NCBI GenBank assembly: GCA_015485455.1
Contig: WFTN01000566.1
Span: forward strand, 1 to 15,072
Reading direction: 5' to 3'
DNA from: Planctomycetota bacterium
GTDB taxonomy: Bacteria; Planctomycetota; GCA-002687715; DRQF01
Length of the DNA stretch: 15,072 nucleotides
The notes under the pieces were generated by a model. That model ran no database searches. It saw only the letters and a program-made list of their open reading frames with translations, and was not told where the DNA came from. The translations under genes were made by a program, and so were the position numbers. Position 1 is the first letter of the stretch; the number at the start of each line of letters is the position of its first letter. This document shows positions 699 through 15,072 of this stretch, one piece after another.

Positions 699-3275
699 CT
701 ACCAAGACCAAGTCCAAAGGGCATCGGCGCAATTGTAAGCCTGCCCCCAGAGTGCGATGTTCGACATAATCTTAGTTTCCGAGTTCGGGAACTGCTGCAT
801 GCGAAAGGCAATCTTGTCGTAAGAACTTGGGTCATTGTAATCCTGAGGTGTCTGCGACGTGGTCTCGCTGTGTTGGTAATATCTTGTCACAGATTGGAAC
901 AGTGTTCTTGAGGCCGCCATGTAAGAGGGATCAAAGAACACAATACTCGACCAGGCCAAAGCCTGAGACGTCACCCAAACATGATGAACACTGGGGTTCA
1001 TGCGATAGGTTTGATCGTCAATGCGGCGCCAAACTGTCGCTGTGGTCCGCGCATTCATCGGGCCAGTGGGCGTGTCCTTGATCACCTCATCACGCATGAG
1101 GATGGCCATCTTCTTGATAACATCAACGGCGGTTTGATCCCATGATGCCAAGTAGTACTTGCACAGTGCATTCAGAACGATGGCGTGCATCCAAGTCTGA
1201 GCATGAGGAATGCTCCACCCTGGGTTATAGACCAAACCGTCTGAGCCTGTCCGTTGCAAGTCAAGAACCTTCCAACGTTCCATCGTATCATGAGCTTCTG
1301 TCAAGTAGGCCGGATCACCGATATAGTTGTAGAGGTTGGTAAGACCTTCCAACTGCCATCCAAGGATACGAGCACCCCACCACCCGCTCCAGTTTTCTGG
1401 AGCTTGACGTTTGTAGAATTCACCCACTTCCAAAGCTGACTCGTAAGCCCCTTCATCACCGGTGGTGATGTAGTAGAGCAAAAGTCCGTGTACCCAAGTG
1501 TGAGACGCTTCAGGAGCATTGTAGTTACCGTGGGTATACCCCTTCTCGTAAATTTGTCCGCCCCGCCTGGAAGATGAAGCGTGAGTCGTATGGTTTTGGT
1601 CATAGTCTCGGCGATGCTCACTCATGTCCCTTGCCATGTCGAAGAAAGCATAGTCACCGGTGCGGAACCAGTTAATCAGGACGCCAAAGTTAAGGTCGTA
1701 GTGGTTAGACGAGAAGCCATCACCCCAAGCGATGTCACCAAAGTTCTCCCAGCCGTACATTTGACGACTGCCGTAGGTGCCACCTCGGGAACGGAACTTA
1801 GGAAGTCCAATTTGACCAAGGGCATCTTGCTGATCGGCTGCACTGTCGTGAGCCAAAGTATCCATCATCCGTTCCCAACGAATTTGAGATGCGTCCGTCC
1901 AGTTGCGGCGTTCGATGAGCAAATCACCAAAGGCCCAGTTTTGGAAGGGCCAAGACTTGCCTGGACGTCCCAAAATAGGTGCATTCGTCGACTCAGCATG
2001 CTCATAGACTTCCGCCATGCTGAAGCCACCTTGAGAAGGCGACCTAAAATTGATGTTCATCGTATGAGTCTTCCAACGACCACCTTCAAAGCGATAGTGA
2101 GTCGTACTCATCAGGTCCACAACGTTGCTGGTAGGAATGCCGTATTGCCCGCGATAAACCGGGCCAAATCCAAATGAAGGAAAAAGAGCCAAGGAAATCG
2201 TGTCGCCATCCACCTCAAATGCCTTGGGATAGTTTTGCCAAAAACGGTCCGTGGCCACAGAGATCGAACCTGCGGTACTGTTGAGAGCCAAGGCGCCGTT
2301 GAAGCGCCCGCCGGTGAAGATCGTCGTTCCGTTTAGCTTTTCACGATAAAAGAAGCCATCTTCCATTTGCAAGGCATTCAAAGGAGTAGCCCAGTTCTGA
2401 TTGATGACATAGGGGGCACCAGCCAAGTCACGAACATCTGTGGAAGTCACAGCATCGCCATTGGAGTCAGGCACCTTGAGGCTCAACTTCAAGGAATCAA
2501 AATGACTGGTATCATCGCTGTTACCAGTCAGAGTACCGATTTGTCCGTAATTGCCTTGGTTTTCCAAACGGAACTCAACCTTAACGTCGCTGTGCCCAGT
2601 GTAGAAGTAGTAGCGAATGGTAAAATCCAAACCCAGGGAAGGGATGTTTCCACTTTGGCGAATGATGGTCCGAACACTCGAATTGTATTCGAACTTCGTC
2701 GAAGTCAGAACGGGCATGACGCTGGCGCCAGCCACATCGAGGATATCCAAAGAACCAGGTGCGGCAATCACATCTGTGCCGCCAATCTTCACTTCTTTGA
2801 AGAACGAAAAGTTGAGCTTGTCAATCTTGAAAACAGCAGTCCCTGTGTCAATGGTGTACTCGTTGGCGGTTTCTGTGCGAACAAGTTGCCCGGTATGGGC
2901 TGATCCGGGAACGACGTAGTAGGTACGGGTTGAGTTAGCGGGAAGATCGGCGTTGAAGCTGAGCAAAGTCCACTTAACGCGCTTTGAGCCATCCCAGCGT
3001 TTGCCACCCCAACGTGCGGTCACTTTGGCAGCAGCTTCGACTGGGTTACCCAAGTCATCTACGAGCAAGAAATCTGAATTTGGGTTGCTGATGGCCATGC
3101 CCAATGGAATAGGGACGGGCGCTCTCACCGAAACATTGTTCCGAACAAAATTCGACGGGTTATCGACATAAATTGGGAATCCCATAACTTGGGACTTCGC
3201 CTGTACGGCGAATGATAAAAAAAGCAGGGCAGCCAACGCCCACTTTGTGTGCGCTAACGATGAAAGAATTCGCAT
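699..3275 (-). CDS. secreted YetA/PcRGLX-like protein (RIFT barrel plus alpha/alpha toroid), possible polysaccharide lyase or hydrolase
   Basis: 858 residues. The ATG at 3275 is chosen because GGAGG sits 6 nt upstream and a signal peptide follows at once (MRILSSLAHTKW, then hydrophobic ALAALLFLSFAV, cleavage near VQA). The frame stays open 62 codons further up, but those codons look non-coding. Residues 32-130 (FPIYVDNPSNFV, PIPLGMAI, DGSKRVKWTLLSF) resemble the N-terminal RIFT barrel of YetA/PcRGLX proteins, known from rhamnogalacturonan utilisation. The middle is beta-rich. The C-terminal half is Trp/Tyr-rich and helical, with GWENFGDIAWGD and SNNHYDLNFGVL-type segments near residues 505-530 and a SHTWVHGLLLYYITTGD segment near 590, typical of an alpha/alpha-toroid active-site cleft. 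It should act outside the cytoplasm on a polysaccharide. Whether it is a lyase or a hydrolase, and on which glycan, cannot be read here. The two flanking SIS proteins could handle sugar phosphates downstream of it. Confidence 0.75.
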   Translation of the reverse strand: MRILSSLAHTKWALAALLFLSFAVQAKSQVMGFPIYVDNPSNFVRNNVSVRAPVPIPLGMAISNPNSDFLLVDDLGNPVEAAAKVTARWGGKRWDGSKRVKWTLLSFNADLPANSTRTYYVVPGSAHTGQLVRTETANEYTIDTGTAVFKIDKLNFSFFKEVKIGGTDVIAAPGSLDILDVAGASVMPVLTSTKFEYNSSVRTIIRQSGNIPSLGLDFTIRYYFYTGHSDVKVEFRLENQGNYGQIGTLTGNSDDTSHFDSLKLSLKVPDSNGDAVTSTDVRDLAGAPYVINQNWATPLNALQMEDGFFYREKLNGTTIFTGGRFNGALALNSTAGSISVATDRFWQNYPKAFEVDGDTISLALFPSFGFGPVYRGQYGIPTSNVVDLMSTTHYRFEGGRWKTHTMNINFRSPSQGGFSMAEVYEHAESTNAPILGRPGKSWPFQNWAFGDLLIERRNWTDASQIRWERMMDTLAHDSAADQQDALGQIGLPKFRSRGGTYGSRQMYGWENFGDIAWGDGFSSNHYDLNFGVLINWFRTGDYAFFDMARDMSEHRRDYDQNHTTHASSSRRGGQIYEKGYTHGNYNAPEASHTWVHGLLLYYITTGDEGAYESALEVGEFYKRQAPENWSGWWGARILGWQLEGLTNLYNYIGDPAYLTEAHDTMERWKVLDLQRTGSDGLVYNPGWSIPHAQTWMHAIVLNALCKYYLASWDQTAVDVIKKMAILMRDEVIKDTPTGPMNARTTATVWRRIDDQTYRMNPSVHHVWVTSQALAWSSIVFFDPSYMAASRTLFQSVTRYYQHSETTSQTPQDYNDPSSYDKIAFRMQQFPNSETKIMSNIALWGQAYNCADALWTWSW

Positions 3276-3671
3276 GCAGAACCTCCGACGGCAAAAGGAA
3301 TCGCGGCATGCGGCCCGTTTGCGCCTATGAATTAGGCCCAAATCGGTTGCGAGGTTGAAAGGGAAGTTCAAACAGAACCCCCGGTCTTCGTCATGGGGTG
3401 CAGAAAACAGGTGAAAACCACTGTTCTCCCCCAAGACGGAAGATCCGCTCCATCCATGCATCTTGTGGGCAACCTGCTACCGTATCCGTCGTATGACAGA
3501 CTTAGGCCATTGGCTTTGCGTCACCAGCTTTCGCCGGCTTTGCCTTGGTCCAAAGGGACGCTATGAGACGGGGCGCTTGCGCGCGTCGAATTATTGTACT
3601 CTCAGCTTAGTCTACCCCGCACTTGCTCATGAGGTCGGAAAGATTCTGAAACACAGCACGCAGGAATAAGA
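3276..3671. other. divergent intergenic region between the secreted enzyme and SIS genes
   Basis: 396 bp without a convincing gene. It must hold the promoters for the minus-strand secreted protein and the plus-strand SIS gene, but I found no clear -35/-10 pair. An open frame at 3463-3669 (plus) and the 62-codon upstream extension of the minus gene (to 3461) both lack SD support and protein-like composition. I see no strong hairpin in the stretch. Confidence 0.5.
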
Positions 3672-4463: not shown

Positions 4464-4536
4464 TGGAGACGAAGGGAGTCGAACCCTCGACCTTCGCATT
4501 GCGAACACGACGCTCTCCCAACTGAGCTACGTCCCC
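4464..4536 (-). tRNA. tRNA-Ala (anticodon CGC)
   Basis: 73 nt with a full cloverleaf. The acceptor arm GGGGACG pairs with CGTCTCC and includes the G3:U70 wobble that marks alanine tRNAs. D-stem GCTC/GAGC. Anticodon stem TCGTG/TGCGA around loop TTCGCAA, anticodon CGC, reading GCG. Variable loop AGGTC, T-stem GAGGG/CCCTT around TTCGACT, discriminator A. The 3' CCA is not encoded (the next bases are TGG), so it must be added after transcription. It is a single tRNA with its own promoter candidate and terminator. Confidence 0.96.
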
Positions 4537-5798: not shown

Positions 5799-7316
5799 CT
5801 ACTTGAAGCCCTTCTTGATGAACTTCATATAGGCCTCATTCAATTCTTCCAGGTCCACCCCATCGATGGCTGCATCCAGGGCCTTACCTGAGCTCCCGGT
5901 TTTGACCATAGTGTTGAAGTAGATGTCCAAAATCTCGGGCCAACGCTTGTTTTGCTTCTTACAGCTTTTGCTTTTCAAAAAGTAAACAAAAGCCCACCCT
6001 TGCGCATAGCAAATTCGGCCATTGGCATAATATTGAGGCTGGGTGTAAGTGAGAAGATCCTTCAGATGGACGTTCTTTCCTTCGCGGACAGCCTTTTTGA
6101 CCGTGGCTGTGCGCCAGTCGAACAAGCCAATTTTGAAACCCTTCTTGGGGTTCGCGCCTGCAAAGTAGTCACCATAACCTTCGTCAAACCAACGATGAGC
6201 TGATGTCTCACCCACAGAATAGTACAAGTATTGGTGGAAAGCTTCGTGAAATAAGGTCGAATAAGAATCTGCCATGCCGCCATCTTTGGTGGCATCATAG
6301 ATGACCAATTCACCTGATGAAGGATTGAAGTAACCAGCACTGCCACCAGGACCGCCATATTGGTGATACTCCTCTCGATCCTGGCAAACCCGAACAACAC
6401 TCACAGCGGTGATTTTCTTCTTCGGAGGAAACACCTTTTCGTAGTGCTTTCTCATGCGCTCAAGATACTTCACAATATTCTTGGCGAAGATGATCTGCTT
6501 GGTTTTTTTCTGAGGAATGTTGTGGACGACGACGTATTGCTTTGTCGGTGTGGGCATGATTGTCCAACTCTTGGGCAAGCGTCCACGAATCTTCTCGATT
6601 TTCTTGTCCATCTCCGACAAGTTGTCCAGATCCATGCCCTTCTTTTGGTTTTTGCGTTCCCGATCAAAGAACTTAAGCGACTTAATCGATGAATAAATCT
6701 TCGATTTGACTTTTGTTTTCGAGTTAGGAGAGCGCTCAGGAAAAATCTGATCCGTAGGAGCTTCGTAGATCACCGCCCACTCGAAGGTGCCATCGAAGAC
6801 CACCCCGACAATCATCGAAGTGTGACCGTACTTTGTGGAACGCAGGTCGAGTTCAAAGACCTTGCCTTTGGCCTTGCCAACTTTAATGGCTTTCGACTTG
6901 GGTAGTTTGGCCAGATATCCAAAGCTCTTTTTCCAATAGTCCTGAAACGAAACCGGACGGTTACGCTCTTTCCAGCGCCTCATCATCTCCGCGCGGTCAA
7001 TCTCTGGACTACCATCACCCTGGCCCCCCGCTGTCACTTCAGCGGGGACGGCCGATCCCGTCACCCCCCCACGGCGGCGGAATTTCATCAGGCGCAGGGC
7101 ATAGCGCTCGCCAGTGCCCTTTTTCATGGTATCGGCTGCCCATTTGGCCACCACGTCGTCTTCATCCGGTTGAGGAGGAATCTGATCCCACTGGCCTGGA
7201 ACCTTGACGGAGACACCATCAGCAGGGAATTTCTGCCGCTTGAGTGACTTGATTTGCCCACCAGCAGAAACAGCCATGGTCACGATTAGGAATACGGTTG
7301 CGAAATAACGATACAT
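5799..7316 (-). CDS. secreted zinc metallopeptidase-like protein (DUF1570 / peptidase MA-like)
   Basis: 505 residues from ATG 7316. GAGGGG lies 11 nt upstream, and a signal peptide follows (MYRYFATVFLIVTMAVSAGG). The C-terminal domain (about 290-500) contains HEAFH at 357-361, a canonical HEXXH zinc site, then WFDEG with Glu379 18 residues after the second His, the spacing expected for the third ligand of a gluzincin-type peptidase. A GGPGGSAGYFNPSSGELVIYD-like segment precedes it, typical of DUF1570 proteins. The N-terminal part (about 25-230) is rich in Lys/Arg and may bind a surface or substrate. The protein probably acts outside the cytoplasm. It converges with the trmL operon with 26 bp between stops and no good terminator. 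Substrate unknown. Confidence 0.82.
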   Translation of the reverse strand: MYRYFATVFLIVTMAVSAGGQIKSLKRQKFPADGVSVKVPGQWDQIPPQPDEDDVVAKWAADTMKKGTGERYALRLMKFRRRGGVTGSAVPAEVTAGGQGDGSPEIDRAEMMRRWKERNRPVSFQDYWKKSFGYLAKLPKSKAIKVGKAKGKVFELDLRSTKYGHTSMIVGVVFDGTFEWAVIYEAPTDQIFPERSPNSKTKVKSKIYSSIKSLKFFDRERKNQKKGMDLDNLSEMDKKIEKIRGRLPKSWTIMPTPTKQYVVVHNIPQKKTKQIIFAKNIVKYLERMRKHYEKVFPPKKKITAVSVVRVCQDREEYHQYGGPGGSAGYFNPSSGELVIYDATKDGGMADSYSTLFHEAFHQYLYYSVGETSAHRWFDEGYGDYFAGANPKKGFKIGLFDWRTATVKKAVREGKNVHLKDLLTYTQPQYYANGRICYAQGWAFVYFLKSKSCKKQNKRWPEILDIYFNTMVKTGSSGKALDAAIDGVDLEELNEAYMKFIKKGFK

Positions 7317-7474
7317 CTTGGGCAAAACCCCTCTTTTTTGTCCTGAGAATCGAATGCCTGAAAGCAATCTTCACTTCTTACACTGTTAAGACGCGAAAAA
7401 TGGTGATTCCGTTCCGATTTTATTTTTCGTTACAATAATTTGACACGAAACGAACTGAAAAATCAGAAAAGACT

Positions 7475-7708
7475 ATGAGCAACTCTCACGAACGCCTGAC
7501 AGAAATCGAACATGATCTTAGCCACCAAGGGAGGCTTGCAGAAGTGCTGAATGAAGTTGTTTGCCAACAAGGTCGAGAGATCGCTGCCTTTGCTGGCGTT
7601 ATCAAGAAACTTGAGGCGAGAATTACCTATTTGGAACAACGTTCCAGCGGCGGCGACGCCGCGAGTACAGCGGAAGAAGCGTCTCCTTGGAAAGACCCAG
7701 AGATGTAG
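7475..7708 (+). CDS. slyX: SlyX-family small coiled-coil protein
   Basis: 77 residues. The pattern ERLTEIEHDLSHQGRLAEVLNEVVCQQGREIAAFAGVIKKLEARITYLEQ (residues 6-55) gives heptads with leucine, isoleucine and valine at core positions and matches SlyX: Lx-E-x-DL, LNxVVxxQQ-like, IxxLExRI. The tail (56-77) is acidic, Ser/Ala-rich and likely disordered. SlyX is a conserved small cytoplasmic protein without a settled function. The gene is divergent from the peptidase gene and stands alone; the SD (AGAAAAGA) is poor. The symbol is by family resemblance, since short coiled coils can mimic one another. Confidence 0.75.
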   Translation: MSNSHERLTEIEHDLSHQGRLAEVLNEVVCQQGREIAAFAGVIKKLEARITYLEQRSSGGDAASTAEEASPWKDPEM

Positions 7709-7836: not shown

Positions 7837-7962
7837 AGAAGCCGCGGGACGCGACTGCTCCCAGTTGGATAATCTTAAGAAGACGAAGAAGCCGCGAGAC
7901 GCGACTGCTCCCAATTGGGTAATCTCAAGAAGACGAAGAAGCCGCGGGACGCGACTGCTCCC
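7837..7962 (-). repeat. tandem array of 50-bp hairpin repeats (three copies)
   Basis: The block that reads GCCGCG, GGA, CGCGAC, TGCTCCC on the plus strand occurs at 7841-7862, 7891-7912 and 7941-7962, exactly 50 bp apart. Two full linkers of similar sequence (AGTTGGATAATCTTAAGAAG-like) separate the copies. On the minus strand each copy reads GGGAGCA, then GTCGCG and CGCGGC as a 6-bp stem (one G:U) around TCC (TCT in the middle copy), then TTCTTCGTCTTC. On the minus strand the array begins 65 bp after the sigma-factor stop, in sense with that gene. Its boundaries with flanking unique DNA are abrupt. See the findings for its likeness to the array at the right edge. Confidence 0.85.
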
Positions 7963-8027
7963 GGCCTAAGGAAAGAGCGCGAGCCTTCTTGGCTAAACTG
8001 CCAAGCAACGGCTCAGCGCTTTCGTGC

Positions 8028-8657
8028 CTAAACTTCGACCTTCTCCCACTTCTCCCGGAAGATCTCTCTTGCTTTGTGCAATCTCCAGCGGGTGGTGGCA
8101 TTGGTGCAGTCAATGATCTCTGCAATTTCGTCACAACTCATTTCGTGGACATCACGAAGTAAAATCACAGTTTTGTACTTCTCAGGCATGGTGTTGAGAA
8201 CACCATTGATTTTCTGGCCTAGCTCAGAACACATCATCAGAGCTTCAGGCCCCTTGGCAGGCTCCGTGGGATCAGCTGGGAACTCTTCCAAACTCACGTT
8301 GTTTTGTTTGCCCTTTTTGCGAAGGGAGTCGATGGCCAAGTTCACCACAATCCTGTAGAGCCAAGTGTAGAAGTTATATTTCAAGTCGAAGCGATTGATC
8401 GCTTTGAAGACCCGCAGGAAAGCGTCTTGGGAAATGTCTTTGGCGTCCTCGACGTTGTTAACGAGGTTGAAGGCCACCCAAAAAACCCGCTTTTCATATT
8501 CTTTGACCAAGGCCTCAAAGGCTTTCATGTCGCCTCCTTGGGCGGCCACGATTCTTTCCTTTTCAAGGCGAATCTCTTCAGGCGTCCGCACCCGACGAGG
8601 TTGCTTCTTGCCGACTTTAGGTGCCAGCTTCTTGGTCTTGTTCTTGAGCTCCATCAT
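8028..8657 (-). CDS. ECF-type RNA polymerase sigma factor
   Basis: 209 residues from ATG 8657, chosen because GAGGGAG ends 6 nt upstream. Further in-frame ATGs up to 8771 lack a good SD and encode unlikely sequence. Region sigma-2 spans about residues 47-115 (FEALVKEYEKRVFWVAFNLV, DAKDISQDAFLRVFKAI, FYTWLYRIVVNLAIDSLRKK), with the DISQDAF core-binding and FYTWLYRI -10-binding parts clear. Region sigma-4 spans about 150-203 (LNTMPEKYKTVILLRDVHEMSCDEIAEIIDCTNATTRWRLHKAREIF), a helix-turn-helix for the -35 box. A basic extension of about 35 residues precedes sigma-2. No anti-sigma gene is next to it. It could direct a stress or envelope regulon; the signal is unknown. Confidence 0.93.
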   Translation of the reverse strand: MMELKNKTKKLAPKVGKKQPRRVRTPEEIRLEKERIVAAQGGDMKAFEALVKEYEKRVFWVAFNLVNNVEDAKDISQDAFLRVFKAINRFDLKYNFYTWLYRIVVNLAIDSLRKKGKQNNVSLEEFPADPTEPAKGPEALMMCSELGQKINGVLNTMPEKYKTVILLRDVHEMSCDEIAEIIDCTNATTRWRLHKAREIFREKWEKVEV

Positions 8658-8776
8658 GGTGTTCTCCCTCACTCTGTCGTTCATATCTTTCTCGTATGCC
8701 CAAACGGGATTCGAGCGTTGGGTCCGACAGTGAACCCGCATCCACATAGCCTTTCGCAAGCGGTGGGCCAAACGAC

Positions 8777-8796
8777 GAGAATTCTTTCTAATTCTC
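8777..8796. promoter_or_regulatory. 20-bp dyad, possible operator near the sigma-factor promoter
   Basis: GAGAATT and AATTCTC form a perfect 7-bp inverted repeat with a 6-nt spacer (CTTTCT on the plus strand). It lies 120 bp upstream of the sigma-factor start. The size and symmetry fit a dimeric regulator's site, but the AT-rich arms could arise by chance and no -35/-10 box is clear beside it. Confidence 0.3.
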
Positions 8797-9063
8797 CTAA
8801 GGCGTTTATTTGAAACGACTTAGACATTGCCCCAAGACAATCGATTCCTCAGAACTACTGTCCCCAAAAGTGAAACATCGTTGCACGATTTAGGACACTT
8901 CCTCTTAGACGCACGATTCTTTCAGACGCGCCATCAATTCTGCTGGGGCATCTACCCTACAGCGCAAAGTTCTTTGCTATGAAGATTATAGAGTTTGATG
9001 ACGAATCATCTCGAACAACCCATTATTCGCTGGGGGGAATAAGCCCCACCTCTCGGAAATAGT

Positions 9064-9119
9064 GGCTGGGAACGGACTTAGGAGGAGACGAGTTGGGGCC
9101 TCTTGATGGCCCAGCCAAC
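9064..9119 (+). promoter_or_regulatory. overlapping hairpins in the leader of the leucine-dehydrogenase gene
   Basis: GTTGGGGCC (9092-9100) pairs with GGCC (9108-9111) and CCAAC (9115-9119) around a 7-nt loop with a 3-nt bulge. The segment CCCAGCC (9110-9116) can instead pair with GGCTGGG (9064-9070). The two folds exclude each other, as in attenuators or leader switches. There is no T-run after either. They lie 80-135 bp before the start codon. This is structure seen on paper only. Confidence 0.3.
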
Positions 9120-9199
9120 TTGACGTATGACTGTGGCACAAAAGCACTTGTGAGCTTTTCGACTATCGCCCCATCCAACCCATGAGCAGGTCCTTGATC

Positions 9200-10255
9200 A
9201 TGAAGATCCGCAAACTCGATATTGAGAACTACGAGACCGTCGTCCACGCTACAGACGATGCCACTGGCCTCAACGCTTTCATTGGCGTCCATGACACAAC
9301 TTTAGGACCAGCATTGGGCGGCATGCGCATCTGGCCCTACGAACGAGAAGAAGACGCTCTCACCGATGTGCTCCGGCTTTCCAAGGGCATGTCCTACAAG
9401 TCGGCAATCGCCCAAACCGGATTGGGAGGCGGCAAATCTGTCATCGTTGGTTCTCCAGACGTGGTGCGCAATCCAGAGACGCTACGGGCCATGGGACGCT
9501 TCATCGAGACTTTAGAAGGCAAGTACATCACAGCTGAAGACGTCAACACCCGAGTCGTCGACTTAGAGATCGTGCGGGAAGAAACCAAATGGGTCACGGG
9601 CCTGCCCTTAGAAAAAGGTGGCTCGGGCAATCCATCACCTTACACAGGTTTCGGCGTTTTCTTGGGCATAAGGACTTGCCTTGAAGAGGCTTTCGGCAGC
9701 GACGACCCCAAGGGCAAGCACGTTGCAATGCAAGGTGTTGGCAATGTAGCCCAAGCAGTGATTGAGCAATTGCTCAAAGCAGGGGCCACGGTGACCGCTT
9801 GCGACATCAACGAGAAACGCATCAATGCCGTCAAGGAAAAGTATCCAGAGGTCACCTTCGTCGATCCGGATACAATCTATGACATTCCTTGCGACGTATT
9901 CTCACCCCATGCTTTGGGTGCCATCATCAACGATCAAACAATCGACCGTTTGCGGTGCCCCATCATCGCCGGCGCTGCTAACAACCAACTGGCGGAGGTA
10001 CGCCACGGCGACATCTTGCGAGAAAAGGGCATTCTCTACGCCCCTGATTTCGTCATCAATGCCGGTGGCATCGTCAATGTCAGTGTCGAATTCCAAGAAG
10101 GTGGCTACAACGAAGAAGTAGCTCTCAAGAAAATCGGCAACATCCAGAACGCCCTGAAGTCCACTTTTGCCATGGCAAAGGAAGACGGCACTTCCACCAA
10201 CCGCGCTGCGATTGCCGTGGCCAAAAAAATCATCGCCGACGCTAAACGCTCATAG
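9200..10255 (+). CDS. leucine dehydrogenase (Glu/Leu/Phe/Val dehydrogenase family)
   Basis: 351 residues. NAD-dependent oxidative deamination of branched-chain amino acids to 2-keto acids and ammonia in the cytoplasm, reversible. The N-terminal domain carries GPALGGMR (37-43), Lys67 in GMSYKSA and Lys79 in GLGGGKSVI, the substrate-binding and catalytic lysines, and Asp114 in TAEDVNT. The NAD domain has GVGNVAQAV (179-187) with Asp202 ending the next strand (TACDINE). APDFVINAGGIVNV (281-294) is typical of the family. The 351-residue length fits leucine dehydrogenase better than the longer glutamate dehydrogenases. Start: ATG 9200 has AGCAGG 9 nt upstream and matches the usual MKI-type N-terminus; ATG 9182 (six residues longer) has no SD. 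Related valine or phenylalanine specificity is possible. Confidence 0.92.
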   Translation: MKIRKLDIENYETVVHATDDATGLNAFIGVHDTTLGPALGGMRIWPYEREEDALTDVLRLSKGMSYKSAIAQTGLGGGKSVIVGSPDVVRNPETLRAMGRFIETLEGKYITAEDVNTRVVDLEIVREETKWVTGLPLEKGGSGNPSPYTGFGVFLGIRTCLEEAFGSDDPKGKHVAMQGVGNVAQAVIEQLLKAGATVTACDINEKRINAVKEKYPEVTFVDPDTIYDIPCDVFSPHALGAIINDQTIDRLRCPIIAGAANNQLAEVRHGDILREKGILYAPDFVINAGGIVNVSVEFQEGGYNEEVALKKIGNIQNALKSTFAMAKEDGTSTNRAAIAVAKKIIADAKRS

Positions 10256-10292
10256 AAGCAAGACTTGAGCTTTCTTTGAGTTTAGCCTGACA

Positions 10293-10314
10293 CTCCTGTA
10301 GGATTCTACAGGAG
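10293..10314 (+). terminator. stem-loop after the leucine-dehydrogenase gene, likely terminator
   Basis: Perfect 9-bp stem CTCCTGTAG / CTACAGGAG with a GATT loop, 37 bp after the stop codon. The following bases (CGCCACCTTCATT) are only weakly T-rich, so it may be a poor terminator, an mRNA 3'-end stabiliser or a binding site for the downstream methyltransferase promoter. Confidence 0.5.
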
Positions 10315-10350
10315 CGCCACCTTCATTACCTTACTTCCAAAGTTGACGGC

Positions 10351-11274
10351 ATGACAAACGAAACTGCTGATACCACCGCCTCCTCTGAATCAAGCTCTCA
10401 TGCCTCAGAGATTGCCGCGGGCGAACGTTTTGAATTCGGCGAGAACTGGCGGCGGTTCTTAGCCAGTGTTTCTGAAGAGCGCATCACGACAGCCATCGCC
10501 AGTGTCCAAGAGCTCTTGGGGATCACCACCCTCAAGGGCAAGACCTTCGTCGATGTGGGATGCGGCAGCGGACTGTTTTCTTTGGCGGCTCACCGCATGG
10601 GTGCCCAAGTTCATAGTTTTGATTTCGACCCGGCCTCTGTCGCCTGTTGCCAACAACTCAAAGAAACCTATGGCAATAGTGGAGCCACATGGAAGATCGA
10701 ACAAGGCTCCGCTCTTGACCCAACCTATCTAAAACGATTAGGTCAATTCGACGTCGTCTATTCTTGGGGTGTTCTCCACCATACCGGGGAGATGTGGCAG
10801 GCCATCGACAACGTTTGCAAACTGACGAAGCCAAATAGCTTGTTCACCATTGCCATCTACAACGACCAAGGTTCTTGGAGCGACCGATGGAAACGGATCA
10901 AGAAGACTTACAACAACCTCCCCCGATTCCTCAGACCGGTCTTCGCGGCTGTTGTCACCTTTCCCTTTGACTTGAGAATGGCGCTCAGTGCGTTCTTGAG
11001 GTTGAAGCCCATGGAATACATCCGCGTCTGGACGTCTTATGAGAATGATCGTGGCATGAATCGCTGGCACGACATCATTGATTGGGTGGGCGGCTATCCC
11101 TTTGAAGTTGCTAAGCCAGAAGAAATGCTCAAATTCTTCCGTGACCGAGATTTCGAGCTTACGAATCTGAAGACACGCTTGGGCAGTTTGGGTTGCAATG
11201 AATTCGTTTTTCAAAAGCAAGCCGAGGCCCCAGCCGAGATCAAACTCAAAGAGCGAACCGCCGCGAACGAGTGA
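10351..11274 (+). CDS. class I SAM-dependent methyltransferase
   Basis: 307 residues. Rossmann-type SAM site: FVDVGCGSGLFSLAA (66-80) is motif I, followed by the acidic end of strand 2 in SFDFDP (89-94) and QFDVVYSWGVLHHTG (132-146) as motif IV/post-motif. The C-terminal part (about 170-290) holds a conserved-looking block (WHDIIDWVGGYPFEVAKPEEM) and a GCNEFVF ending, as in methyltransferases often found near glycan or lipid genes. A low-complexity Ser/Thr/Ala N-terminus (1-22) is likely disordered. The SD is poor. The substrate cannot be named. It converges on a second, unrelated-looking methyltransferase gene. Confidence 0.85.
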   Translation: MTNETADTTASSESSSHASEIAAGERFEFGENWRRFLASVSEERITTAIASVQELLGITTLKGKTFVDVGCGSGLFSLAAHRMGAQVHSFDFDPASVACCQQLKETYGNSGATWKIEQGSALDPTYLKRLGQFDVVYSWGVLHHTGEMWQAIDNVCKLTKPNSLFTIAIYNDQGSWSDRWKRIKKTYNNLPRFLRPVFAAVVTFPFDLRMALSAFLRLKPMEYIRVWTSYENDRGMNRWHDIIDWVGGYPFEVAKPEEMLKFFRDRDFELTNLKTRLGSLGCNEFVFQKQAEAPAEIKLKERTAANE

Positions 11275-11277
11275 GAT

Positions 11278-11366
11278 CCTGGTCGTTGTGTGAGAAAATG
11301 CCCCCCTCAAGGAAAACTCGGAACAACGATTCCTAAGACTTCTTTTGAGAGCACAACGCGACCAGG
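11278..11366. repeat. long imperfect inverted repeat between convergent methyltransferase genes
   Basis: CCTGGTCGTTGTG (11278-11290) pairs with CACAACGCGACCAGG (11352-11366), 13 bp with a 2-nt bulge. Inside it, CTCAA (near 11306) can pair with TTGAG (near 11345) and GGAA with TTCC, giving a nested fold. It starts 3 bp after the first methyltransferase stop and could act as a bidirectional end structure for both convergent transcripts. No T-run follows either arm. Confidence 0.45.
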
Positions 11367-11426
11367 GGCGGCCGCGCGGTCGTGAAGGATATTCGGGCCA
11401 AGGCGATGATTCGTAAGCAATGGGGA

Positions 11427-12275
11427 CTAACTTCGCTTTCGTGCCACCACTTCGCTGATGCTTGGGGTGCAAAAGAGGGAGTTCGGCGATGACGAACGCT
11501 GCTTCCAATCGTCCAAGAATTCGTCTTCATCCTGGGATGTCAAAACCCCCTTCTCAACAAGCGTTCGGGCGACGATAGGAAAGAAACTCTCCGGCCAGCG
11601 CCAAAGAGCATCTTGAGGGCTTACCGAAAAGGTCAGGAGACGTTTGTATTCGACGTCAAAGCCGCAAGCATCAAGATGGGCGGGAAGGTCAAGCCCAACC
11701 CTTGGGTTTCCGCCACTGGCAACCCAGCTGTCATGAAAAGCACCTACCAACTTGTCAAAAGCTTCGCTTCTGGGATGGAGAGTTAGTGCACCAATGAAGT
11801 TCGAATAATCTTGAATGGCAATGGTGCCCCCGGGCTTTAGGGAGGCGCCAATGTTTCTGAGAGCCCCTTGGGGATCGTTGAGGAAACACCGCACCCAACG
11901 TAAATAGGCTGCATCGTGAAAATTCGCCTCCAAGGTGATCTCTTGTAAATCACCCTGGACGACTTTTACGCAAGAGGCATCGACACCAGGAACACCGTCT
12001 TTGGCCAAAGTCGCCTCCAAGCTGGAGACGAAAACCGCTGCATATTCGACCGCTGTCACCTGCCCTCGATCGCCAACAATGCGAGCTAAGTCCATGGTCG
12101 CAAACCCAGGGCCGCTCCCAGCATCCAGGACTTTCGAACCGTAGGCAATCCCGGCGCGCTTCCAAATTTTGTGGGCGTACTCGCTCCACAAAGCATGCTG
12201 TAGACCTAAACGGAATGCTTCGTCTTCATGGGTGCCCAAGACATAATCATCTGCATTGCCAGTTTCGAAATTCAT
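11427..12275 (-). CDS. class I SAM-dependent methyltransferase (UbiE-like fold)
   Basis: 282 residues from ATG 12275 (MNFETGNADDYVLGTHEDEAFRLGLQ), the usual N-terminus of such enzymes. AAAGG lies about 9 nt upstream. Fourteen more in-frame codons reach another ATG at 12317, but these are not protein-like. Motif I is KVLDAGSGPGFATMDLAR (48-65), with TAVEYAAVFV as the acidic strand-2 end and AYLRWVRCFLNDP and LKPGGTIAIQDY as motifs IV-VI. It begins 53 bp after the helicase stop on the same strand, so the two are probably cotranscribed. Substrate unknown; small-molecule methylation is most likely. Confidence 0.85.
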   Translation of the reverse strand: MNFETGNADDYVLGTHEDEAFRLGLQHALWSEYAHKIWKRAGIAYGSKVLDAGSGPGFATMDLARIVGDRGQVTAVEYAAVFVSSLEATLAKDGVPGVDASCVKVVQGDLQEITLEANFHDAAYLRWVRCFLNDPQGALRNIGASLKPGGTIAIQDYSNFIGALTLHPRSEAFDKLVGAFHDSWVASGGNPRVGLDLPAHLDACGFDVEYKRLLTFSVSPQDALWRWPESFFPIVARTLVEKGVLTSQDEDEFLDDWKQRSSSPNSLFCTPSISEVVARKRS

Positions 12276-12328
12276 GCTCCTTGGCCTTTCCTGTACTCGG
12301 GAATTATGACTGGCCAAAAGCGAATTGC

Positions 12329-14299
12329 TCAGTCGTCAATAACCCGTACCCGAGGAATAGCACCTAAGAACGCACGACCATAATATTTGTTCTTGATCCT
12401 GGTGTCTAAAACCACAACTGTGCCCGTGTCCGTTTCCGTCCGAATCAATCGACCAAAACCCTGCTTGAAGCGAATGATTGCCTCTGGCAAAGCTAAGTCG
12501 CGAAAGGCATTGCCCCCCTGGCTTTCAATGAGTTGGGCTCTGGCTTTCTGCAAGGGCGCCGTTGGCACTGAGAATGGAAGTCTGGCAATGATGACGAGCC
12601 GCAAAGGATCACCCTTCACATCAACCCCTTGCCAAAACGAATCGGTGCCAAACAGAACGGAATTGTCGGATTTTTGAAACTCCTTCACCATCATCGAACG
12701 GGGCATCTCTTCCCCCTGAACAAAGACCGGAAAGCCGAGCTCTTCCAAACGACCAATGATGCGATTTCGGATCTTGTTCATGAAGTCATAGCTGGTGAAG
12801 AGAATAAAAGCTCCACCTTGACTATGCTCCACATAACCCAGAATAGCGTTGGCACAGCGCTCTTCGTAGTCCTCGTCCTTAGACGGTTCATTGAGCCAAG
12901 TTGGAATGCGCAAGCGAACGTTTTTTTCGTAGTCAAATGGCGATCCTAATTGAAGGCGCGCTGCCCTCGTTGCTCCCAAGGCCTGGGCGACAAAATCGAG
13001 ACCGTTCTGCCGCCCCGTAGCCAAGGTGGCACTGGTCAAAATCACCGTGCCCACTTGTTCAAACAAGAGCTTCTCCAAGGTGTCGCTCACCTTGAGAGGT
13101 TTGCTTTGGATGCTTGCAGTGGTGCCCTGCTCGTTTGACTCCGCCCAGTGCACCGCTTTTCCTTCCATTCCATGAGGTCGCAAGATCACTTGCAACGACT
13201 TCAGAATGGAATCGATCCTGGTGATGTAAGACTGGAATTCGCTCTCTTGTTCCTGAGAGCCGCAATCGAGCTTCAAGTCCCCCAACTCTCCAGCCAACTC
13301 GTTGAGAACCGGCGACAAGACATCTCGGATCTGGTTCTCGTCGGTGATCTCACGCATGAAACGGTGCCGTCCACAAAACTGAGAGACCGAGAAGAAAAAT
13401 TCATCGCAAGCCTCTTCAGCTTCACCACAGAGACTTCGGGCCGCCTCCGCTCGCTGCACATACTGAAGAAATCCAAGCCCTTTGTGCCGTCGATGGAGGC
13501 GCATAAGAAGTAAACGAACCATACGCCGGGTTACGCGATGCCCAAAATGGTCAAGGGCCATGCCCTCTAAGCTGTGAGCTTCGTCAAAGATGACAACATC
13601 GTGGTCAGGCAGGATCTTGGCTCCCTTGGCCCGCAAAGCCAAGTCAGCCAGATACAGGCTATGGTTGACCACAATGAGATCCGCGTCTTGAAGCCCTCGT
13701 CTGGCCACATGGTAGGGGCAATCTTCGTTGAAATGACCGCAGGCCAATCCCAGGCAGTTTCCATGCTCTGACTGAACCTGCTCCCAAACATCATAGGTGG
13801 GTGCGGGAAAGATCTCTTGCTTGGTTCCTTCTGCCCCTTTGGTCCTCAAGGTATGCTGGATGCGCCTGAGCTGTTCTTTGACCTCGGGTTCGACTCCTGT
13901 GTCCATGGCACCCTTGATCGCCATAGCCAAGCGCCGAGGAGCAATATAGTTGCTACGACCCTTGGCCACCGCCGCCACAAATCGCCCTGGCAGGACGCTC
14001 TCCAGCCAGGGAATGTCCTTCTGAATCAGCTGATCTTGGAGACTCAAAGTCTGAGTTGAGATCAAGACGCGTCGCCCAGCAGGAATGGCCCTGAGTACGG
14101 CAGGCACCAAATACCCCAAACTCTTGCCAACCCCCGTCCCCGCCTCCACGATGAGGTGCTGCCCCTCGGAGATCGCAGATCCTACAGCATTGGCCATCTC
14201 AAGCTGCTGAGGGCGCAAATGGTAGTTTTCCAGCTTTTGGGCGGCGAGCCCATCCTCAGAAAAAAAGGCCTCGATTTCTTCGTCATTCAGACCAGACAC
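12329..14299 (-). CDS. DinG/XPD-like superfamily-2 DNA helicase
   Basis: 656 residues, typical of the DinG/YoaA group. GTG start at 14299 with AGGAAGAG ending 5 nt upstream. Motifs in order: Q-like LRPQQLEMA (28-36), Walker A EAGTGVGKS (52-60), Ia STQTLSLQDQL (81-91), Fe-S region 116-200, DEAH at 239-242, LTSATLATG in the middle, WQGVD and QGFGRLIR (613-620) as motifs V-VI. The family unwinds DNA 5' to 3' and resolves R-loops and G-quadruplexes in repair. The Fe-S region has Cys182, Cys187 and Cys194, but the first ligand, normally Cys after NYL/I, is Ala120 (GRSNYIAPRR). The cluster may be absent or differently held. The symbol dinG would be by similarity only, as YoaA is equally close. Confidence 0.92.
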   Translation of the reverse strand: MSGLNDEEIEAFFSEDGLAAQKLENYHLRPQQLEMANAVGSAISEGQHLIVEAGTGVGKSLGYLVPAVLRAIPAGRRVLISTQTLSLQDQLIQKDIPWLESVLPGRFVAAVAKGRSNYIAPRRLAMAIKGAMDTGVEPEVKEQLRRIQHTLRTKGAEGTKQEIFPAPTYDVWEQVQSEHGNCLGLACGHFNEDCPYHVARRGLQDADLIVVNHSLYLADLALRAKGAKILPDHDVVIFDEAHSLEGMALDHFGHRVTRRMVRLLLMRLHRRHKGLGFLQYVQRAEAARSLCGEAEEACDEFFFSVSQFCGRHRFMREITDENQIRDVLSPVLNELAGELGDLKLDCGSQEQESEFQSYITRIDSILKSLQVILRPHGMEGKAVHWAESNEQGTTASIQSKPLKVSDTLEKLLFEQVGTVILTSATLATGRQNGLDFVAQALGATRAARLQLGSPFDYEKNVRLRIPTWLNEPSKDEDYEERCANAILGYVEHSQGGAFILFTSYDFMNKIRNRIIGRLEELGFPVFVQGEEMPRSMMVKEFQKSDNSVLFGTDSFWQGVDVKGDPLRLVIIARLPFSVPTAPLQKARAQLIESQGGNAFRDLALPEAIIRFKQGFGRLIRTETDTGTVVVLDTRIKNKYYGRAFLGAIPRVRVIDD

Positions 14300-14393
14300 A
14301 AATTCTCTTCCTAAGTAATTTGGACCATGATAACATTCCCCCGCGTCGGAAAACGCATAACGTGTTCACAGAAGGATTTGGGAGAATTCACGG

Positions 14394-14816
14394 ATGTCGA
14401 ATTTGAGGCATGGAGCGCTGGTTTTGCTCGGCTTATTGTTTGTCTCGGCCTGTAGCTCATCAGTGGAATATACCCGGGAGCCGCAGATCCGCTACGCTGA
14501 CGCACGAGATCGTTACGAAGATATTTCTTTGCACAAGATCTTTCACGACGGCAAGCTCATGGGGTATGCCGACTCCAAGCGACTCAAGGATGGCGACAGT
14601 AACGATTTCAATGATCGCCATGAGGTTTTCATCTTGGATGCCAACCATGACATGGTGGGCTATATCACCGACCACAACCAAGCATTTCGCCTACGGGCTC
14701 ATGGGCCAAGTGAGTTAGTCGCCGTCAACGATGACTTGGGCCGCAATGTTCAAGCTATCTTCGGTTGGCGTCAAGGAACAGTGACATTGAAGCGCATGGT
14801 TTACCAAGAAGACTAA
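14394..14816 (+). CDS. small lipoprotein of unknown function
   Basis: 140 residues. Start ATG 14394 with GGGAG 9 nt upstream. MSNLRHGALVLLGLLFVSACSSS is a lipoprotein signal with lipobox VSAC, so Cys20 would be lipidated and the protein exported and membrane anchored. The mature part (about 120 residues) has no domain I recognise. It is rich in Asp, His and Tyr, with a run of Asp/Asn (KDGDSNDFNDRHEV, 66-79), and it looks like short beta strands (HEVFILDANHDMVGYITDHN, TVTLKRMVY). It is divergent from the helicase gene with 94 bp between, and is followed by a strong terminator. Confidence 0.8.
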   Translation: MSNLRHGALVLLGLLFVSACSSSVEYTREPQIRYADARDRYEDISLHKIFHDGKLMGYADSKRLKDGDSNDFNDRHEVFILDANHDMVGYITDHNQAFRLRAHGPSELVAVNDDLGRNVQAIFGWRQGTVTLKRMVYQED

Positions 14817-14839
14817 GTCGAACAGCTGATGATTCAAAG

Positions 14840-14870
14840 AAGCAGTCTCTCACTTGGTGAGGGGCTGCTT
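14840..14870 (+). terminator. strong rho-independent terminator of the lipoprotein gene
   Basis: A 14-bp stem with two G:U pairs starts AAGCAG and ends CTGCTT, closed by CTCAC/GTGAG around a TTG loop, and is followed at once by TTTCTT (the T-run is TTTTTCTT counting the stem end). It starts 24 bp after the TAA of the lipoprotein gene. Confidence 0.85.
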
Positions 14871-14975
14871 TTTCTTGTGGGAAACGAAGATCAAAACGAG
14901 AGCAACATCGTTGCGAATTCGAAGCAGCCCTTAATCCCGTCCTTGCACTTATGTCATTGAGTTCGTTTTTTTGCC

Positions 14976-15072
14976 AGGAGCACAGGCATCCTGCCTGTTT
15001 CTTTGTCTTCCTATCTCCGGTCAGGAGCACAGGCATCCTGCCTGTTTCTTTGTCTTCCCATCTCCGGTCAGG
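14976..15072 (+). repeat. tandem 47-bp hairpin repeats running off the right edge
   Basis: Unit 14976-15022 is repeated at 15023-15069 with one visible change (T to C at the centre of TTCCTATC), and a third copy begins at 15070, so the array continues outside. Each unit starts AGGAGCA, then CAGGCA and TGCCTG form a 6-bp stem (7 bp with the flanking A:T) around TCC, then TTTCTTTGTCTTC and a linker. It lies 159 bp after the lipoprotein gene on the same strand and past its terminator. Each hairpin plus its T-rich tail looks terminator-like, but the repetition argues for another role. Confidence 0.88.

Follow-up and report, generated by a model that had tools for sequence, protein, structure and literature searches.

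Tandem hairpin arrays in the window

The DNA analysed here, hereafter the window, is the whole contig WFTN01000566.1 (15,072 nucleotides, nt) from assembly GCA_015485455.1 of a Planctomycetota bacterium. It contains two short tandem arrays of hairpins, array 1 and array 2. A first-pass annotation of the sequence had placed each of them downstream of a protein gene in sense, and this was found to be correct: array 1 follows a sigma-factor gene on the minus strand and array 2 follows a 140-amino-acid (aa) reading frame on the plus strand. Array 2 is truncated at the contig end, and its unit count is therefore a lower bound. Scores in the list below were obtained with R1, a covariance model built from eight copies found in this genome (five from the window and three from contig C253).

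7836-7962, minus strand: array 1, tandem, period 50, 2.5 copies (three 50-nt units), in the gap between a SlyX-family gene (plus) and the sigma-factor gene (minus)
7938-7962, minus strand: array 1 hairpin copy 1, GGGAGCA, stem AGTCGCG/CGCGGCT, loop TCC; R1 39.4 bits
7888-7912, minus strand: array 1 hairpin copy 2, loop TCT; R1 37 bits
7838-7862, minus strand: array 1 hairpin copy 3, tail diverging past TTCTT; R1 39.4 bits
14975-15072, plus strand: array 2, tandem, period 47, 2.1 copies (two 47-nt units), with the first bases of a third unit at the window end
14976-15000, plus strand: array 2 hairpin copy 1, AGGAGCA, stem ACAGGCA/TGCCTGT, loop TCC; R1 39 bits
15023-15047, plus strand: array 2 hairpin copy 2; R1 39 bits

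The unit of both arrays consists of an RGGAGCA head, a 7-bp stem, a TCY loop and a pyrimidine-rich TTCTT tail; C or T plus one further base precede the RGGAGCA foot. Sequence and repeat periods (50 and 47) confirmed the initial description, according to which head, loop and tail are common to the two arrays and the six inner stem pairs all differ between them and are all paired. An extra A-T pair beneath these six is formed in five of five window copies, which makes the stem 7 bp long. The proposed comparison with Rfam was negative: its covariance models gave no match over either array at E<=1, which rules out a known Rfam RNA as the identity of the arrays. The only Rfam matches in the window, a c-di-GMP-I riboswitch and a tRNA, lie away from them.

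Copies elsewhere in the genome

The assembly comprises 4.13 Mb in 614 contigs and is 77% complete. A scan with R1, in which the best 150 of 523 candidates were scored, revealed at least 10 sites at 36 to 40.2 bits in four places: arrays 1 and 2 and contigs C253 and C294. Eight of the 10 strong sites had been used to build R1, and the two strong C294 sites, as well as a site at the start of contig C290, are independent of the model. The C290 site (24.5 bits) and two sites near noise were the other three matches at E<=10. On C253 the strong copies are ordered plus, minus, plus, the second and third of them being separated by a decayed minus copy, and C294 contains 106-nt units, each made of one copy and one inverted, decayed copy. 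Arrays 1 and 2 and the C253 copies are intergenic; at C294 there is overlap with a 133-aa frame, and the C290 site overlaps one that is open at the contig start. Since array 2 and the C294 and C290 copies are located at the ends of contigs, the copy number of this genome is probably underestimated. When R1 was applied to 99 genomes (at most 79 candidates scored per genome), this genome and three others were matched at E<=0.01 among the candidates scored.

Two unrelated tandem repeats could, in principle, resemble each other by chance. The exact search pattern of the first-pass annotation matches only array 1 in the genome (it misses array 2 because the array 2 tail is one T longer), and a scan of public genome contigs with a tail pattern, possibly excluding the records of this genome, returned 10 places, none with this hairpin on rescan. 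Both results would fit a chance likeness. It is refuted, however, by the further copies on C253, on C294 and in a sister species, which share the head, the loop and a paired stem and one of which is in an orthologous gap; we give it a negligible probability. The refuting condition set in the first-pass annotation, a genome scan with these two loci alone, did not apply: the hairpin occupies at least four places here and further ones in the sister species.

Pairing and folding of the copies

The five window copies and the three C253 copies were aligned (eight rows, six of them distinct). All 42 stem cells of the distinct rows are paired; a displacement of the structure by 1, 2 or 3 columns leaves 28 to 43% of cells paired. 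The covariation score was 0.705 (shuffled mean 0.220) and nine cells were changed on both sides (shuffled mean 2.9); neither value was reached in 500 shuffles. Two of the five measures were unremarkable, the number of pairs changed on both sides (four) being matched by 72 of 500 shuffles and that of further pair types by 168 of 500. Single copies are not outstandingly stable, with DNA-fold z-scores from -0.74 to -2.66 over the 11 stretches folded.

A second, mutually exclusive fold had also been suggested, with GGGA or AGGA pairing with TCCC or TCCT. Such pairing is possible in seven of nine distinct copies of this genome; upon single-strand DNA folding, a fold using the head is the minimum in one array 1 copy and one C294 copy, and a mixed fold is the minimum in another array 1 copy. 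As a conserved feature the second fold was rejected, since among relatives TCC is present in the loop region of just 13 out of 48 distinct tagged hairpins (see below; 229 of 2,286 among background hairpins). We take it as a by-product of the GGGA head and the TCC loop within the genus.

Copies in a sister species and in the orthologous gap

The sister species is represented by genome G001, which has the same genus code. We built a broader model, R2, on 20 elements, of which G001 contributed one. With the best 150 of 2,609 candidates scored, R2 found at least 14 dispersed matches in G001 at E<=10, seven of them at E<0.01. Three of five copies examined overlap mechanically called frames of 125-177 aa. 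One copy (contig C149, 2536-2560, minus strand) lies between the orthologues of the sigma-factor and slyX-type genes that border array 1. It is single, has the orientation of array 1, the same CCGGGAGC start, a TCC loop and a TTCTTCTTC-type tail; the pyrimidine tail is kept in sister-species copies. Its stem, GCGGACG/CGTCCGC, differs from the window stem AGTCGCG/CGCGGCT on both sides in five of seven pairs, and seven of seven are paired. The copy may have descended from a common ancestor with compensatory change or may have been replaced by another copy, two histories that the sequences do not distinguish. Beside the sigma-factor gene of G002, a genome from a different genus of the family, no copy was found with R2.

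A counterpart of array 2 was not seen in G001, where further sequence, free of hairpins of this family, comes shortly after the orthologous gene and a hairpin; the far side of array 2 is not comparable because the window ends inside the array. In an alignment of both species (14 distinct rows) 95.9% of 98 cells pair; the pairing figures of this alignment are inflated because the rows were collected with models that reward pairing. Six of seven pairs are changed on both sides (a number reached by 49 of 500 shuffles), the covariation score is 0.739 against 0.253 (none of 500 shuffles as high), and further pair types (nine) are not above shuffles (455 of 500 as high).

Tagged hairpins flank transposase genes of the phylum

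There is one Y1_Tnp gene in G001. Its product passes the NCBIfam model NF047646 (REP-associated tyrosine transposase, RAYT; REP, repetitive extragenic palindromic) with 86 bits against a cut-off of 80. The nearest solved relative, and the only PDB match below E 0.1, is E. coli TnpA-REP (4er8, E 6e-8). The protein has an NHVH (HVH) motif and a YIENNP motif with the tyrosine present. Of the 4er8 residues named in PMC6006769 as contacting GTAG, W94 and R104 are kept, and Q95, E100 and H101 are replaced by S, D and R, respectively. With the best 150 of 703 candidates scored, R1 has a single match in G001, in sense and 96 nt upstream of the segment matched in this gene. This hairpin has a GGGACC tag and a GCGGGCG stem with one mismatch, and a perfect, untagged hairpin of the same stem is found, inverted, at the gene end.

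Homologues of the sister RAYT were detected at E<=1e-5 in 120 of 294 genomes. We scanned 51 RAYT regions of up to 16.6 kb each with R1. Flank distances were measured from the matched protein segment rather than from gene ends, and several loci share a genome or clade and are not independent. At E<=10 there were 91 matches, 42 of them in the 25.2 kb of 250-nt flanks and 49 elsewhere (637 kb outside flanks and genes; two inside the RAYT segment), so that match density is about 22-fold higher within 250 nt of a RAYT. The flank matches comprise 12 upstream in sense, 19 downstream inverted, six downstream in sense and five upstream inverted; hence 31 of 42 are either upstream in sense or downstream inverted. 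At least one flank match was present at 24 of the 51 loci, at 11 of them on both sides.

The same association was seen without a model, by counting hairpins of at least 6 bp in 300-nt flanks together with their tags (tag events were counted, and one hairpin can count on both sides). There were 72 GGASC tag events among 247 flank hairpins and 108 among 2,286 remote ones. The RGGASC motif was followed by a hairpin in 61 of 108 cases in flanks and in 53 of 843 remote cases. Flank controls gave 5 of 55 (RGGTSC), 8 of 136 (reversed tag) and 11 of 136 (complement), and GT[AG]G was followed by a hairpin in 32 of 397 flank and 236 of 8,101 remote cases. Among the 50 distinct tagged hairpins of the flanks the prevailing reading is C-C-Y-G-GGA-S-C-G. 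The stem is of 7 bp in 38 of them, and the loop has three (35) or four (15) bases. The head is the most conserved part of the relatives' hairpins, and a T-rich tail is not general among them.

Some of the 51 RAYTs are flanked by GT[AG]G hairpins instead. In a tree of the 51 proteins, 38 were labelled by tag and one tie (L155) was excluded; the sister RAYT (L154) was labelled GGASC by hand from its sequence, its mismatched upstream hairpin giving an automatic count of zero, and L159 was labelled GT[AG]G by count, though its flanking hairpins read GGGATC. The tag follows the tree with four changes (shuffled mean 10.5; all 500 shuffles needed more). Support is weak for 25 of 48 inner branches, and a long branch leads to the sister RAYT. 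Glutamine at position 95 (E. coli numbering) is found at 11 of 12 GT[AG]G-favouring and 14 of 25 GGASC-favouring loci. Because tag labels follow clades, RAYT residues were rejected as tag determinants and none is claimed.

Several hairpins of other genomes were noted alongside. In G010, of the same order, R2 finds at least 29 GGGAGC-type copies at E<=10, 13 of them at E<0.01, and each of five copies examined (L176, L181, L185, L190 and L195) has an inverted whole or partial copy within about 60 nt, a REPIN-like arrangement. At RAYT loci L163, L165 and L168 (G175, G019 and G187) the flanking hairpins read CTGGGA-GAGGCGAGC or CGGGA-GAGGCGAGC; this foot, GGGA with GAG replacing SC, is perhaps a further tag variant. 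At L121 and L173 (G214 and G056) the flanking hairpins are CGCCAATCTCCTGATTGGCG in both genomes, with a different foot.

The hairpins as probable REP-type elements

The copying of REP elements within bacterial genomes is attributed to a small transposase. In the broad sense, REPs are RAYT-associated palindromes of 20-40 nt with a short stem and a small loop, present in many copies and situated between genes. A short foot-tagged hairpin, repeated in the genome and arranged in inverted pairs around a Y1 transposase gene, has the REP/RAYT layout. We conclude, with a probability of about 0.85, that the arrays are tandemly multiplied REP-type elements, i.e. DNA hairpins of about 25 nt in which a 5' foot tag, RGGASC (CYGGGASC in relatives), is joined to a stem of 7 bp with a loop of 3 to 4 nt. 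The proposal of the first-pass annotation, one dispersed hairpin family with compensatory stems and possibly mobile, is supported; its suggestion that no named family has such a layout is not, the difference being in the tag.

The closest systems are the GTAG REPs with their RAYT/TnpA-REP proteins, especially GTAG-1 of Pseudomonas and Xanthomonas (PMC3733652, PMC2817692), which have the same small-loop hairpin with a foot tag at one end, the same complementary stem variants, the same single, inverted-pair and clustered copies, and a Y1/HUH transposase gene flanked by them. Some GTAG-1-type REPs of P. putida and Xanthomonas contain the letters of the hairpins described here, e.g. GTGGGAGC or GTAGGAGC. 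In contrast to GTAG-1 REPs, the foot here is CYGGGASC (C/T-N-RGGASC in the window), without GT[AG]G, the copy number found is low and the stems differ between species. REPINs/BIMEs (PMC3116915) show the same inverted pairs as C253, C294, the RAYT flanks and the five G010 copies, and tandem clusters that include flanking DNA have been described (PMC3733652, PMC3116915). By its NHVH and YIENNP motifs the sister RAYT fits the NH[IFV]H and YIxNNP motifs of TnpA-Y1 subclass 2.4 (PMC6006769), a likeness in motifs; canonical 2.4 REPs carry GT[AG]G and their enzymes WQ, in place of which WS is found in the sister RAYT. For subclasses 2.6 and 3 the same paper gives non-GT[AG]G structures, which it calls atypical.

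TnpA-REP binds REP in single-stranded form, and the 5' tetranucleotide has a part in recognition or in selecting the cut; cleavage by the E. coli enzyme occurs at CT next to the hairpin (PMC8266576, PMC6006769). The association of the hairpins with RAYT flanks was observed, and we infer mobilisation by a RAYT. By analogy, a RAYT guided by the tag would bind the hairpin in single-stranded form, cut beside it and help to copy or move the element, perhaps as an inverted pair. Tandem units would then arise through local duplication, and the stem would be free to change while pairing persists. In the window's own genome the RAYT would have been lost, or its gene would be in the missing part of the incomplete assembly.

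Several observations weigh against this assignment. The tag of the GTAG super-family (GTAG or GT[AG]G) is absent from the foot of the window copies, and the relatives' tagged flank hairpins read C-C-Y-G-GGA-S-C. The tag of the CGTC super-family is absent as well, and the stems are of 7 bp against 8-9 bp. In this 77%-complete assembly neither a Y1_Tnp match nor, at E<=1e-5, one to the sister RAYT was found, and the copy number is low (10 to 12 model matches against usually more than 100 REPs per genome, PMC2817692). The R1 match beside the sister RAYT was initially weak (E 4.2), with its stem mismatch, and 27 of 51 RAYT loci have no R1 match within 250 nt. Scans with R2 of the same-order RAYT regions of G008 and G010 (L059 and L060) and of a single region of G004 (L062) gave one match, of 12.7 bits, in L060, the sole Y1_Tnp region of G010. 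Finally, the T-rich tail also fits terminators.

In view of the missing RAYT, one may suppose that a side role has replaced mobility, the hairpins being former REPs retained at certain gene ends because they bind a factor or stabilise mRNA, in a genome that has no active RAYT. The orthologous-gap copy, present in both species with a stem rewritten yet paired, would agree with that. However, copies break contigs in an assembly that lacks about a quarter of the genome, and array 2 has no counterpart in the sister genome, indicating that copies still come and go; we regard a replaced role as possible but rather unlikely.

REP-type elements are a known kind, and we consider the CYGGGASC foot in place of GT[AG]G to be a new variant. 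REPs are classified by GTAG-type or CGTC-type tags (PMC3733652), and a TnpA-Y1 survey used an automatic search with GTAG or GTGG (PMC6006769); none of the titles and abstract openings listed in the literature searches describes a GGGASC-tagged REP class. We would give even odds that the phylum holds a RAYT lineage reading a CYGGGASC guide instead of GT[AG]G, guide and enzyme having switched together. If so, REPs of this lineage would escape searches that require GT[AG]G, and the RAYTs of one phylum, taken together with their flanking hairpins, would provide a natural code that relates enzyme residues to guide sequence and cutting site. The hairpins add a foot-tag class to the REP/RAYT world from a little-studied bacterial group, and the orthologous-gap elements, with five of seven stem pairs differing and head and loop retained, are a clean case. 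The choice of REP and cutting site by RAYTs becomes testable by comparing GGGASC-type and GT[AG]G-type pairs within one phylum.

Genes and terminator-like signals around the arrays

The following features border the arrays.

8028-8771, minus strand: sigma-70-type factor gene (ECF-like); array 1 starts about 65 nt past its stop
7475-7708, plus strand: SlyX-family gene converging on array 1 (PF04102, 41.2 bits, cut-off 30)
14394-14816, plus strand: 140-aa reading frame preceding array 2, no Pfam match, conserved in the sister genome
14837-14873, plus strand: strong terminator-like hairpin between the 140-aa frame and array 2 (-24.6 kcal/mol, z -4.86), missed by the terminator scan

The position of both arrays past genes in sense raises the question of whether the units are transcription terminators or mRNA 3'-end hairpins, i.e. 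RNA hairpins with a T-rich tail, selected at gene ends and tandemly duplicated. All five window copies were flagged terminator-like (three of four sites near array 1 with 1.6 expected, two of five near array 2 with 0.7 expected), and the retention of the pyrimidine tail in the sister species points the same way. The tails of the flagged copies include C and G, however, and the gene before array 2 already has the far stronger hairpin listed above, with a T-run; another hairpin (z -2.11) lies between the sigma-factor gene and array 1. Terminators would also not be expected in opposite orientations within one intergenic region or, with the same tag, on both sides of relatives' RAYT genes; a T-rich tail is not general in those relatives, and the head, which terminators can dispense with, is the most conserved part. 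A terminator origin thus appears improbable, and we retain the REP-type assignment.

Away from the arrays, a 522-aa frame (5799-7367, minus strand) has a DUF1570 match slightly below the cut-off (21.7 against 22 bits), and a tRNA gene is located at 4464-4536 on the minus strand (63.1 bits). The c-di-GMP-I riboswitch (3465-3554, minus strand; 68.4 bits, gathering 35) stands immediately ahead of the gene at 699-3461 on the same strand, a 920-aa frame with a PcRGLX-like domain match.

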